This document shows, piece by piece, positions 398 through 53,244 of a DNA stretch of 64,000 nt. Each line of letters opens with the position of its first letter. Within the stretch, counting starts at the first letter, position 1. The position numbers and the translations under genes are program-made. Source of the stretch: Acidovorax sp. A79. Lineage in GTDB: Bacteria; Pseudomonadota; Gammaproteobacteria; Burkholderiales; Burkholderiaceae_C. The DNA lies in NCBI RefSeq assembly GCF_041154505.1, contig NZ_AP028672.1, positions 4,380,501 through 4,444,500 of the forward strand. The letters run 5' to 3'. Under the pieces are notes generated by a model. The model made no database searches and was not told where the DNA came from. It saw only the letters and a program-made list of their open reading frames with translations.

Positions 398-439
398 GCT
401 ATATTTTTAATAGCTATCGGCGCTTGATGGACAGGCGCT
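398..439 (+). repeat. Two-hairpin dispersed element, copy 1
   Basis: Hairpin A is GCTAT (398-402), a 7-nt loop, ATAGC (410-414). A 4-nt spacer TATC follows. Hairpin B is GGCGCTT (419-425), a 7-nt loop, AGGCGCT (433-439), with G-T wobbles at two pairs. The tail AGTGGCC follows. The copy lies between obgE and proB and ends one base before a possible GTG start for proB. Confidence 0.85.
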
Positions 440-461
440 AGTGGCCAAAAACACTAAAAAA

Positions 462-1604
462 ATGGTTTCCAGCGTATTGCGTGATGCCCGCCGCATCGTG
501 GTCAAGGTGGGTTCCAGTCTTGTGACCAATGAGGGGCGTGGCCTCGACGAAACCGCCATTGGTGAATGGAGCCGCCAGCTGGCGGCCCTGGTGCGTGGCG
601 ACGGCGGCGTACCCCGCGAGGTCGTGATGGTGTCCAGTGGTGCCATTGCCGAAGGCATGAAGCGCCTGGGCTGGACCACGCGGCCGCACGAAGTCCACGA
701 GTTGCAGGCCGCTGCCGCCGTCGGACAGATGGGACTGGCGCAGATGTACGAAACCAAACTGCGCGAGCAGGGCATGGGCAGCGCGCAGGTGTTGCTCACC
801 CATGCGGACCTGGCTGACCGCGAGCGCTACCTGAACGCGCGCTCGACCTTGCTCACGCTGCTGCGCCTTGGCGTGGTGCCGGTGATCAATGAGAACGACA
901 CCGTCGTGAACGACGAGATCAAGTTCGGCGACAACGACACGCTAGGTGCCCTGGTGGCCAATCTGGTGGAGGCCGATGCGCTGATCATCCTGACCGACCA
1001 GAAGGGGCTGTACACGGCCGATCCGCGCCGTGATGCATCGGCGCAGTTTGTCCACGAAGCCAAGGCGGGCGACCCGGCACTGGAGGCCATGGCCGGCGGC
1101 GCGGGTTCCAGCATCGGCAAGGGCGGCATGATCACCAAGATCCTGGCGGCCAAACGGGCTGCCGGCTCGGGGGCGTCCACCGTGATTGCCTGGGGGCGTG
1201 AATCCGACGTACTGGTCCGCCTCGTGCGGGGCGAGGCGCTGGGCACCTTGCTCGTGGCCCAGACGCAGAAGAAGCAGGCCCGCAAGCAGTGGATGGCCGA
1301 CCACCTGCAACTGCGGGGTTCGGTGGTGGTGGACGCCGGGGCGGCCGCCAAGGTGCGGGATGAAGGCAAGAGCCTGCTTCCCATCGGGATGACGGCGGTG
1401 GAGGGCGACTTCTCCCGTGGTGACGTGATTGCCGTGCGCGACGCCTCCGGCGCTGAAATTGCCCGCGGCCTGGCCAACTATGCGGCGGCCGAGGCGCGGA
1501 TGCTGTGCCGCAAGCCCTCGACGGAGTTCGAAAGGCTGCTGGGGTATGTTGCGGAGCCGGAGATGGTGCACCGCGACAATCTGGTGCTGGCTGCCACCAG
1601 CTGA
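462..1604 (+). CDS. proB: Glutamate 5-kinase
   Basis: Catalyses ATP-dependent phosphorylation of glutamate to glutamyl-5-phosphate, the first and feedback-regulated step of proline synthesis. The product is 380 residues with an N-terminal amino-acid kinase domain ([13 protein letters not shown] near the start, VINENDTV and FGDNDTLGA in the middle) followed by a C-terminal PUA domain, the usual proteobacterial form. I chose ATG at 462, giving the N terminus [11 protein letters not shown]. An in-frame GTG at 441 would add seven residues but lies in the conserved tail of repeat copy 1 and so may be incidental. Neither start has a good Shine-Dalgarno sequence. proA is not adjacent. Confidence 0.93.
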
Positions 1605-1635
1605 TGGCCAAGTCCCAGGCCACTCGCACGCAGTC

Positions 1636-1663
1636 AAACGCCTGCTCTGTGCAGGCGTTTTTC
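1636..1663. terminator. Bidirectional intrinsic terminator between proB and rppH
   Basis: Perfect inverted repeat AAACGCCTGC (1636-1645) and GCAGGCGTTT (1651-1660) around a 5-nt loop. It is followed by Ts on the plus strand and flanked by the matching A-run for the minus strand. It sits between convergent proB and rppH, so it can serve both. Confidence 0.85.
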
Positions 1664-1685
1664 ATGGTGGCTGGCCACTGAAGGG

Positions 1686-2354
1686 CTAGCGCGGCGTGGT
1701 GACCGTGGGCAGGCCGTCCAGCTCCCCCGGCACACTGTTCTGCGGGTCGGGATCGAAGCTGGCGCCCGGAGGGAGCTCCATTCCCGGATTGATCAGCATG
1801 GACCCGGTCCGGAACATCGTGCCCGCGTGCTCCCCTTCGCGCGTGCGCATGCCGCTGCGCAGGTAGCGGTTGCGCTGCTCGTGGCGGGGCAGGTAGCGCG
1901 CCAGTTCCGTGAGGGCCATCTCATAGACGCCTCGCTTGAATTCGACCACCACGTCCAGAGGAACCCAGTAGTCGTTCCAGCGCCAGGCGTCGAATTCCGG
2001 GTGGTTGGTGGCACGGAGGTTCAGGTCCCAGTCGTGGCCCACCAGTTGAAGCAGATACCAGATTTGTTTCTGGCCTTTGTAGTGTCCGCGTGCATCGCGG
2101 CGGATGTACCGGTCAGGCACCTCATAGCGCAACCAGTCCCGGGTGCGGGCCACCACGCGCACGTGGTTGGGCAATAATCCCACTTCTTCATGCAGTTCAC
2201 GGAACATGGCCTGTTCGGGGGTTTCACCCCGGTCAATGCCGCCTTGCGGGAACTGCCAGCTGTGGGTGCGTATGCGCTTGCCCCAGAACACCTGGTTTTT
2301 CTGGTTGAGCAGGATGATGCCGACGTTCGGCCGAAAGCCGTCCCGGTCAAGCAT
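1686..2354 (-). CDS. rppH: RNA pyrophosphohydrolase (Nudix)
   Basis: Removes pyrophosphate from the 5' triphosphate end of mRNA, which triggers RNase E-dependent decay. The product is 222 residues. The Nudix box is complete and begins [11 protein letters not shown], with the REL-HEE-VG catalytic signature following. The family N terminus [13 protein letters not shown] fixes the start at 2354, although the frame remains open for 13 further codons upstream. The extended C-terminal tail after about residue 160 is common in betaproteobacterial RppH. It is divergent from proS, with 92 bp between the two starts, and convergent with proB. Confidence 0.95.
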
Positions 2355-2446
2355 AATCAAACCCCAAATTTTTAAACTATGTCCATTATGCACGGCGCCT
2401 AGCGTGCAGCAAGTGGGCTGCCCCGTTCTGCCCGAAATCGATTCCG

Positions 2447-51746: not shown

Positions 51747-51751
51747 GGGAA

Positions 51752-52714
51752 TCAGATGTCGGAAGCCTTCACGCGGGGGTCGATCACGGCGTAGAGGATG
51801 TCCACCACGAAGTTCACGATCACCACCATGGCCGCGAGCAGCATCACGCAGTTGCGCACCACGATCAGGTCGCGGTTGGAAATCGACTGGAAGATCAGGC
51901 GCCCCAGGCCTGGCAGGTAGAACACGTTCTCCACCACGATGGTGCCGGCCAGCAGGTTGGCGAACTGCAGGCCCATGACGGTGACCACGGGGATCATGGC
52001 GTTGCGCAGCACGTGGCCCCAGAGCGCGGCGCGCTGCGACAGGCCCTTGGCGCGCGCGGTGCGCACGAAGTCCTCGCGCAGCACCTCCAGCACGGCCGAG
52101 CGCGTGATGCGCGCGAGGATGGCCGCCTGCACCACGGCCAGCGCGATGGCGGGCAGCAGCAGCGCCTTGAGGGCTTCCAGCGGGCCGCCGCCGGCGTCCT
52201 CCGTCCAGCCGGGGAAGCCGCCGGCGGAAAACCATTGCAGCTTCACGGAGAACAGCAGGATCAGCAGGATGGCGAACCAGAAGTTGGGTATGGCGATGCC
52301 GATCTGCGCCAGCCCCATCACGCCCACGTCGCCGAGCTTGTTGTGGCGCGCGGCGGCGTAGACACCCGCCGCGAGCGCCAGCACCGTGGTGATGACCATG
52401 GCCATGAGGGCCAGCGGCACGGTCAGGGCCAGGCGCTCCAGCACCAGATCGAGAACCGGGGAGCTGTAGGCATAGCTGTCGCCCATGTTGCCCACCACCA
52501 GGCCGCTGACCCAGTTCCAGTAGCGCAGGCCGGCGGGCTGATCCAGCCCCAGCTTGGCCGCCAGCGCGGCCACGGCATCGGGAGAGGCGTCGGGGCCCAT
52601 CAGGATCTGGGCGGCGTTGCCCGGCAGGATCTCTAGCACCAGGAACACCACGACCGAAGCACCGATCAGCGTGGCCAGGAGGGTGATGAATCGTTTGAGG
52701 AAAAACAGGCCCAT
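51752..52714 (-). CDS. Peptide-type ABC transporter permease, DppB-like
   Basis: A 320-residue inner-membrane permease and first gene of the operon. The N terminus MGLFFLKRFITLLATLIGAS, the following LEILPGNAAQI, and EDFVRTARAKGLSQRAALWGHVLRN (the EAA loop) are DppB features. DILYAVIDPRVKA is the usual C terminus. The upstream 209-bp region, shared with the divergent ferredoxin gene, contains a palindrome that could be an operator. Confidence 0.94.
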   Translation of the reverse strand: MGLFFLKRFITLLATLIGASVVVFLVLEILPGNAAQILMGPDASPDAVAALAAKLGLDQPAGLRYWNWVSGLVVGNMGDSYAYSSPVLDLVLERLALTVPLALMAMVITTVLALAAGVYAAARHNKLGDVGVMGLAQIGIAIPNFWFAILLILLFSVKLQWFSAGGFPGWTEDAGGGPLEALKALLLPAIALAVVQAAILARITRSAVLEVLREDFVRTARAKGLSQRAALWGHVLRNAMIPVVTVMGLQFANLLAGTIVVENVFYLPGLGRLIFQSISNRDLIVVRNCVMLLAAMVVIVNFVVDILYAVIDPRVKASDI

Positions 52715-52764
52715 GGGAGGGTGGCGTCAGGAAAAAGGAGGAAGGCGCGAGTGCGTCAAATTAA

Positions 52765-52776
52765 TGTGTATACACA
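52765..52776. promoter_or_regulatory. Candidate palindromic operator upstream of the dpp-like operon
   Basis: The perfect 12-bp palindrome TGTGTATACACA lies 51 bp upstream of the DppB-like start, in an AT-richer part of the dppB/ferredoxin intergenic region. Its GT-N-TA-N-AC core resembles operators of GntR-family (HutC/YtrA-like) repressors. No regulator gene is adjacent. Confidence 0.4.
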
Positions 52777-52923
52777 GCATAACGGTAAAAACATCCCCGT
52801 CGGCGGTGGTGGGTTGCAGTGTCGCATGCAAGGCACATGCCACCATCGCGGGATAATACGGAGCATGAACTGCGCTGCGTACCTTCTGGCCCCTGCTTCC
52901 GGCTCCATGCCCAGGGAGGCCGC

Positions 52924-53181
52924 ATGGCGCTGATGATCACCGACGAGTGCATCAACTGCGATGTCTGCGAGCCCGAATGCCCCAACCAGGCGATCTACCT
53001 GGGGCAGGAGATCTACGAGATCGACCCGAGCAAATGCACTGAATGCGTGGGGCACTTCGATGAGCCCCAGTGTGTGCAAGTCTGCCCCGTCGCGTGCATC
53101 CCCGTGAACCCGCAGCACGTGGAGAACCGGGAAACCCTGTGGCAGAAATTCCAGCGGCTGCAGGCTGCGCCGTCGGCCTGA
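52924..53181 (+). CDS. YfhL-type 2[4Fe-4S] ferredoxin
   Basis: An 85-residue ferredoxin. The first cluster motif is [13 protein letters not shown]. The second is [21 protein letters not shown], with an insertion between the second and third Cys, as in the YfhL/Allochromatium-type subfamily. It transfers electrons at low potential; the partner is not known. ATG 52924 gives [12 protein letters not shown], the normal start. It is divergent from the dpp-like operon. Confidence 0.93.
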
Positions 53182-53202
53182 TTTCAAGCCTTGGAGGCGG
53201 TA

Positions 53203-53244
53203 AGCGCTTGTGTATCAAGCGCAGGATGCTATGAAATAAATAGC
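53203..53244 (-). repeat. Two-hairpin dispersed element, copy 12 (inverted)
   Basis: Inverted orientation. On the plus strand: AGCGCTT (53203-53209), a 7-nt loop, AAGCGCA (53217-53223), spacer GGAT, GCTAT (53228-53232), a 7-nt loop, ATAGC (53240-53244). On the minus strand the tail is TACCGCCTCCAAGGCTTGAAATC, matching copy 4. It lies between the ferredoxin and pth. Confidence 0.88.

Follow-up and report, generated by a model that had tools for sequence, protein, structure and literature searches.

A rigid three-module DNA element of Acidovorax and its relatives whose middle module differs by lineage at shared loci

The window analyzed here, a 64,000-nucleotide stretch of the Acidovorax sp. 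A79 genome (contig NZ_AP028672.1 of assembly GCF_041154505.1, positions 4,380,501 to 4,444,500 of the forward strand), carries twelve copies of a 70-bp DNA element composed of three modules, M1, M2 and M3. A first-pass annotation made from the letters alone had recognized them as a dispersed 42-nucleotide unit with two hairpins. All twelve are present at the positions it gave, with an identical geometry of 5-7-5-4-7-7-7 nucleotides (arm, loop, arm, spacer, arm, loop, arm), and score 42 to 81 bits against a model of the whole element. The copies are as follows, with the 42-nucleotide core given after the full extent.

394 to 463, plus strand: 70-bp element (M1-M2-M3), core 398 to 439, 73 bits
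4971 to 5040, plus strand: 70-bp element, core 4975 to 5016, 49 bits
8994 to 9063, plus strand: 70-bp element between prmC and prfA (locus PP), core 8998 to 9039, 81 bits
10203 to 10272, plus strand: 70-bp element between prfA and hemA (locus HP), core 10207 to 10248, 71 bits
15091 to 15160, plus strand: 70-bp element, core 15095 to 15136, 58 bits
22494 to 22563, plus strand: 70-bp element inside a 1298-residue FAD-oxidase/CCG gene, core 22498 to 22539, 57 bits
25103 to 25172, plus strand: 70-bp element, core 25107 to 25148, 54 bits
31101 to 31170, plus strand: 70-bp element with the lowest score of the twelve, core 31105 to 31146, 42 bits
39187 to 39256, plus strand: 70-bp element, core 39191 to 39232, 71 bits
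42718 to 42787, plus strand: 70-bp element, core 42722 to 42763, 63 bits
47080 to 47149, minus strand: 70-bp element, core 47104 to 47145, 72 bits
53179 to 53248, minus strand: 70-bp element, core 53203 to 53244, 57 bits

The genes at loci PP and HP were assigned by Pfam, and the prfA protein shares 100% identity with its counterpart in Acidovorax sp. sif1233 (L092) and 99% with that in A. radicis N35, which makes the host an Acidovorax close to A. radicis. Within the FAD-oxidase/CCG gene (20210 to 24106), the element sits in the linker separating FAD-oxidase_C from Fer4_8.

The 42 nucleotides are the core of a larger unit. In a model trained on 68 strong copies, the informative positions extend from about −4 to +65, counted from the first base of GCTAT, with next to no information outside, and because the signal ends so sharply on both sides we set the unit size at ~70 bp. 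The element is laid out as M1 (GCTAT-N7-ATAGC), a TGCY spacer, M2 (AGCGCTT-N7-AAGCGCT in Acidovorax), RGAGGCC and the A/T tracts of M3, a module that reads approximately RGAGGCC-AWTTT-n6-AAAAT; its GC content is 47%, versus 67% in the surrounding stretches of the genome. The core pattern, with up to two mismatches, matches 302 + 303 times in the whole window genome and 1 + 0 times when reversed. The model finds 219 copies in 1,659,500 bases of this genome and none in the reversed sequence. The description of a dense, dispersed and rigid element, mostly extragenic and in both orientations, stands. Searches that left the gap between the right half of M1 (M1R) and M2 and the M2 loop unconstrained returned a gap of 4 and a loop of 7 in 112 of 121 matches, with one match for each of the five gap/loop combinations shown in the reversed control. 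Likewise, with the M1 loop length left free, 130 of 149 matches had a loop of 7 (3 of 18 in the reversed control). The spacing is thus truly rigid, as in the geometry without indels given by the first-pass annotation, and not an artifact of ungapped searching. Around prfA, 80 named loci (1.50 Mb) contain 234 copies by the model and none when reversed, and 32 of 48 named genomes hold 56 to 923 core matches, the remaining 16 holding 2 to 17.

This three-module family of DNA sites is old and rigid, and its middle word differs by lineage at shared loci. A 400-kb portion of A. delafieldii DSM 64 contains 59 copies (0 reversed) with M1 and M3 like those of the window genome, a likeness that is partly built in, because the search used the window-genome M1/M3 model with five M2 positions masked and would overlook copies whose M1 or M3 had changed. 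Their M2 reads RGCGCAT-nTTCCAC-TAGCGCT, which leaves both inner pairs of the presumed stem broken. The same masked model returned 221 copies (1 reversed) from the window genome, where T occupies position 35 in 10 copies, versus 36 of 59 in A. delafieldii (p=7e-21), and A occupies position 26 in 47, versus 43 of 59 (p=3e-13). Nineteen A. delafieldii copies have flanks that map to window-genome DNA, and 16 of them have a counterpart there, three being without one. All 16 ortholog pairs share locus and orientation while their M2 consensuses differ, with T at position 35 in 11 A. delafieldii members versus 2 and A at position 26 in 13 versus 4. Identity across these pairs is 0.89 in the M1 arms, 0.70 in the M2 arms and 0.40 in loop 2.

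The exact M1 pattern, in counts where a symmetric site can appear on both strands and so be tallied twice, occurs at least 18 times in 43 of 150 genomes of the family and at most 4 times in controls; 19 of these 43 M1-rich genomes have two or fewer matches to the Acidovorax-type M2 pattern. In 195 genomes of 50 other families we counted at most 6 M1 matches, which is within the control range. We derived M2 consensuses from several listed matches each for six genomes or clades: Acidovorax, G031, G019, G064, G020 and G099. Among the matches listed, M2 reads TAGGCAATAAATACGCCGGCT in G031, TACGCATATTCCATGCGCCTT in G019, CCCGCGATATTCTATTGGCCT in G064, GCCGGCG-N5-CGCCGGC in G020 and GCCCA..TGGGCT in G099. 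An all-or-none distribution of the element, which the 32 and 16 of 48 genomes obtained with the Acidovorax M2 pattern had suggested, was rejected since many of the apparent absences are other dialects. A search of loci for M1 plus M3 (threshold 13, reversed control) detected both modules together with a different M2 in Paracidovorax anthurii and P. konjaci, at two loci in each species. It gave no match in P. citrulli (L157), 0 versus 0 reversed in Variovorax (189 kb) and 1 versus 1 reversed in Root219-like Acidovorax (84 kb), where the single match, in L118, looks real.

The junctions flanking prfA show the same replacement of M2 at fixed positions. Between prfA and prmC, M1 followed by the genome's own M2 is present in 5 of 10 genomes of other genera, in the orientation seen in the window, so that locus PP is occupied in those genera with another M2; the M2 of G071 is the closest to the Acidovorax word and the other four are clearly different. 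Between hemA and prfA this holds for 1 of 10 genomes of other genera, and in G088 GCTAC-N7-GTAGC is visible by eye below the threshold. Copies at both junctions keep locus-specific states across genera. The hemA–prfA copy of G064 has a new left M2 half and an old-looking right half, which favors a stepwise change rather than the duplication of entire units. In Acidovorax relatives that lack the element (L115 to L118), GCTAC-N6-GTAGC or GCTGC-N6-GCAGC lies at hemA–prfA, 190 bp upstream of prfA, with the rest decayed; this is possibly a separate local hairpin.

Copies are stable between strains, and their loci and orientations persist on the time scale of genera. We compared 62 window-genome copies with 400 kb of G085, a second strain of the same species. 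Both flanks were found for 54 of them, and 53 of the 54 hold a copy at the same place, so that active mobility between the two strains was not seen; at the 54th position G085 has a different 152-base stretch that contains another copy. Among the 51 copy pairs of equal length, changes affect 1 of 510 positions in the M1 arms, 15 of 714 in the M2 arms and 35 of 918 in the loops and spacer. Purifying selection on the M1 half-sites is strong. Across the six largest ortholog groups (11 to 43 members), identity is 0.85 to 0.99 for M1R, 0.61 to 0.82 for the M2 arms and 0.36 to 0.70 for the loops.

The compensatory stem changes that had been read as selection on folding do not survive larger samples. 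The twelve window copies alone look positive, with a covariation score of 0.179 versus 0.139 after shuffling (7 of 500 shuffles as high). The first stem is fully Watson–Crick in only 5 of them. With 221 copies, no claimed stem pair covaries (z from −0.8 to +1.1 for Watson–Crick pairs and up to +1.5 with wobble), and A. delafieldii breaks the two inner stem-2 pairs in most copies. GCTCC has ATAGC as its partner arm 11 times and GGAGC 3 times, and in 100 copies the pairs changed on both sides number 5, versus a shuffled mean of 5.1. In the dialects of G099 (99 copies) and G020 (30 copies), none of the M2 dyad pairs is conspicuous, and the highest z values (3.1 and 2.4) lie elsewhere. A third hairpin, in M3, was rejected for lack of covariation. 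In single-sequence folding, the example M2 of Acidovorax (−11.3 kcal/mol), G020 and G019 each beat all 200 shuffles, that of A. delafieldii (one sequence) was equaled by 5 of 200, and those of G099, G064 and G031 (one sequence each) folded no better than shuffles.

The loops do not vary freely, as had been supposed, since each carries an asymmetric motif in either orientation, the two orientations being about equally common. Their centers are anti-palindromic. In 90 copies, describing a loop by a single motif that may point either way improves on independent columns by 56 and 57 log units for the two loops, whereas shuffled columns gain at most about 10. The orientations of the two loops are mutually independent (p=0.27). 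At orthologous loci loop 1 mostly keeps its orientation, as judged by eye. Among 1974 non-independent ortholog pairs, 10 look inverted in loop 1 and 15 in loop 2, all with at least 12 differences elsewhere in the element. Inversion of loops by hairpin-mediated template switching was dropped, as none of the 102 loops in the 51 two-strain pairs is nearer to the inverted form, and the idea is unneeded because a symmetric duplex site with an asymmetric center accounts for both orientations. The symmetry of the arms reflects separate conservation of each half, as in a protein-dimer site.

These data bear on the proposal that the element is a structured RNA or a bidirectional terminator or stabilizer at transcript 3' ends. 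Its placement at 3' ends, an M2 hairpin in several lineages and the weak pairing excess among 100 copies (quantified below) agree with such a role. However, there is no covariation in 221 copies, folding is gone in the examples of three dialects that keep M1, and the element ignores the direction of transcription: in tandem gaps 48 copies have the orientation of the gene and 50 the opposite one, and the loop motifs split 46:46 and 49:39 relative to the transcribed strand. An apparent tracking of that strand by the loop motif, hinted at by a ratio of 32:18, was gone at 49:39 with more data. A tRNA gene (55939 to 56012, minus strand) is the one Rfam match that reaches gathering score in the window, and positions 8900 to 10400 (two copies) have none at E<=10. 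We rate this RNA reading as the least probable of those considered, and the structured RNA motif offered by the first-pass annotation as unlikely.

Copies are found predominantly between genes. Home-made gene calls, which surely include some miscalled genes among those that appear to contain the element, place 101 of 219 copies in tandem gaps, 64 in convergent gaps, 16 in divergent gaps and 38 in called genes; the gaps of at least 40 bases available in the same region number 625, 153 and 205, respectively. This distribution, with its preference for 3' ends and convergent gaps, few copies at divergent promoters and both orientations, fits chromosome organization or insulation better than control of single promoters.

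Past mobility is likely, as indicated by inverted doublets in Comamonas and by copies in contigs listed as viral. In the doublets, found at four Comamonas loci and once in the window genome, the two copies start ~62 bp apart and share module 3 as a central palindrome.

Comamonas locus L158: inverted doublet, starts 1881 and 1943
Comamonas locus L161: inverted doublet, starts 4905 and 4967
Comamonas locus L163: inverted doublets, starts 4799 and 4861, and 16393 and 16455
Comamonas locus L160: inverted doublet, starts 4690 and 4752
Window genome (G000), contig C1: inverted doublet, starts 4526511 and 4526572

The core pattern matched in 74 stretches of viral-listed contigs. Two such contigs illustrate the surroundings: in L274 the copies at 8747 and 9161 are near genes for a replication protein, NinB and an anti-repressor, and in L322 those at 6978 and 7289 are near an endolysin gene.

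An active mobilizer is not in evidence. The first-pass annotation suggested a REP (repetitive extragenic palindrome)- or MITE (miniature inverted-repeat transposable element)-like repeat moved by an enzyme encoded elsewhere, RAYTs (REP-associated tyrosine transposases) being among the candidates. The window genome has a single PF01797 (Y1_Tnp, RAYT-like) gene, whose 3.3-kb locus contains no copy, the nearest being weak and ~5 kb away. PF01797 occurs in 38 of 38 genomes tested, 15 of which lack the Acidovorax-type element (two of the 15 are Paracidovorax species that carry another dialect), and the sole PF01797 match of the element-rich G184 is high-scoring and IS200-like. A RAYT link was thus rejected, as the gene is unflanked by copies and there is neither association nor phyletic link between the two. 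G158 (A. temperans DSM 7270) has 37 PF01797 matches, mostly IS200-like, far more than its relatives.

A REP-like origin could still take the form of a mobile palindrome in which M2 is a lineage-specific hairpin, the RTAGC of M1 is a tag, and a RAYT-like enzyme spread the copies in the past and may convert them even now. GTAG-tagged REPs, which are associated with RAYTs, are palindromes scattered outside genes, close to gene 3' ends (Di Nocera et al. 2013, PMC3733652). The element resembles them in lying extragenically in hundreds of copies with a 3'-end bias in tandem and convergent gaps, in its lineage-varying palindrome beside a constant RTAG-like motif and in its inverted doublets or dimers (PMC3733652). 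The strong folding of the Acidovorax M2 also speaks for such an origin. Unlike these REPs, with a palindromic unit of 20–40 bp, the element has 70 bp, three modules, fixed spacing and sharp ends. The REP tag is an unpaired GTAG/CGTC end; in the element RTAGC is almost invariant and makes up the right M1 half-site, 4 nucleotides from M2. The lack of a linked RAYT, the PF01797 distribution, the locus stability between two strains, the absence of stem covariation, the shuffle-like folding of the G099, G064 and G031 examples and a variable palindrome that changes in place beside a constant module all set the element apart, and we regard this origin as unlikely, if the strongest of the competing accounts.

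A further alternative is a self-recognition sequence under molecular drive, akin to DNA uptake sequences (DUS), in which a receptor would prefer DNA carrying the element and recombination of the DNA taken up would spread the dialect. The element lacks a strand link to genes and occurs in viral-listed contigs, both of which suit this account; however, it is mostly extragenic and, at 70 bp, far longer than a DUS or an uptake signal sequence (USS). Dialects that are maintained throughout a genome but differ among lineages are also a property of the DUS of Neisseriaceae (Frye et al. 2013, PMC3630211). Those sequences are present in thousands of copies (PMC3630211), whereas the element is present in hundreds; it is also composite and long, a DUS being short. 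We judge the account improbable, ahead of the RNA reading by little.

Comparison of the sequences leads us to lean, by a narrow measure, toward the element being a composite double-stranded recognition site of a putative fast-evolving DNA-binding factor, held in place, rather than a hairpin. M1 and M2 would be dimer-binding sites for one or more putative sequence-specific proteins acting in trans. The surface that reads M2 would evolve fast, with hundreds of sites following in place, and loss of the factor would let the copies decay, as apparently happened in Variovorax and an Acidovorax subclade. The genomic placement is consistent with a role of such sites in chromosome organization or insulation between transcription units. 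A more ambitious form of the proposal, for which we have only tentative confidence, is a family-wide chromosomal address code in which the constant module would be read by a conserved factor and the middle module by a fast-evolving one, with lineage-wide switches of the word in place. Phage-like contigs would then carry the code too, as they bear copies of the element. To our knowledge, no bacterial system combines constant and variable modules with genome-wide rewriting in place.

Several observations weigh against a recognition site of this kind. No binding protein was found, PF01797 being the sole candidate family tested, and the information in the element far exceeds what a protein needs to find ~700 sites, which suggests common descent of the copies as well. 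One ortholog group, with 23 members, has loops (0.70 and 0.60) that are no less conserved than one of its M2 arms (0.61). The 100-copy set retains a weak excess of pairing (82.5% paired versus 81.4% shuffled, 8 of 500 shuffles) and of covariation score (0.106 versus 0.092, 20 of 500). In other genera, no copy above threshold appears at 14 of the 20 junctions covered, and the masked A. delafieldii search, the double counting of M1 sites and the home-made gene calls temper the figures given above. The uniformity of M2 among the 50 matches listed for G064 means that copying or conversion may contribute. In these matches M2 is nearly invariant and the M1 loops are variable, which hints at recent homogenization.

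If the recognition-site reading is correct, hundreds of sites per genome would answer to a putative DNA-binding factor in Acidovorax, Comamonas and relatives, and the dialects would constitute a natural experiment on the joint change of one protein's specificity and its hundreds of sites. M1 and each M2 dialect would provide a direct handle for finding the factor. The element is also a caution that small sets of copies can display 'compensatory' changes that disappear once hundreds are counted.

Our literature searches retrieved no publication describing the element as such and no published name, in agreement with the first-pass annotation, although likely fragments appear in PMC5217627; a passage search of PMC12306157 for five genus or family names gave no match. 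Parts of the element may resemble a DnaA box, a HaeII site or a CsrA loop. The betaproteobacterial repeat element (BRE) is a small dispersed repeat of Comamonadaceae and Bordetella (Hot et al. 2011, PMC3110155). It is ~90 bp long, with 69% GC in Bordetella, is often in tandem and does not exceed 29 copies in any genome listed (PMC3110155). The element differs in being ~70 bp, dispersed and of 47% GC in a 67% GC genome, and it is at background in P. citrulli DSM 17060, whereas A. citrulli AAC00-1 has 4 BRE copies (PMC3110155).

Tong et al. (2017, PMC5217627) reported two potential novel motif pairs, one from Acidovorax ebreus TPSY, GCTTAT(N)5AAGCG, and one from Polaromonas naphthalenivorans CJ2, ATAGCT(N)22CAAAAG. 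The former fits the M2 of the Acidovorax dialect and the latter begins like M1R. Placement of the A. ebreus motif (114 copies, 107 of them intergenic, with 44 convergent, 4 divergent and 59 co-oriented; PMC5217627) matches that of the element in the window genome. The available text presents them as separate, unexplained pairs in two genomes and describes no element, modules, dialects or mutual relation (PMC5217627). From their sequences, both appear to be pieces of the element in two dialects. A further genome of the family, G117, has 11 matches to ATAGCT(N)22CAAAAG.

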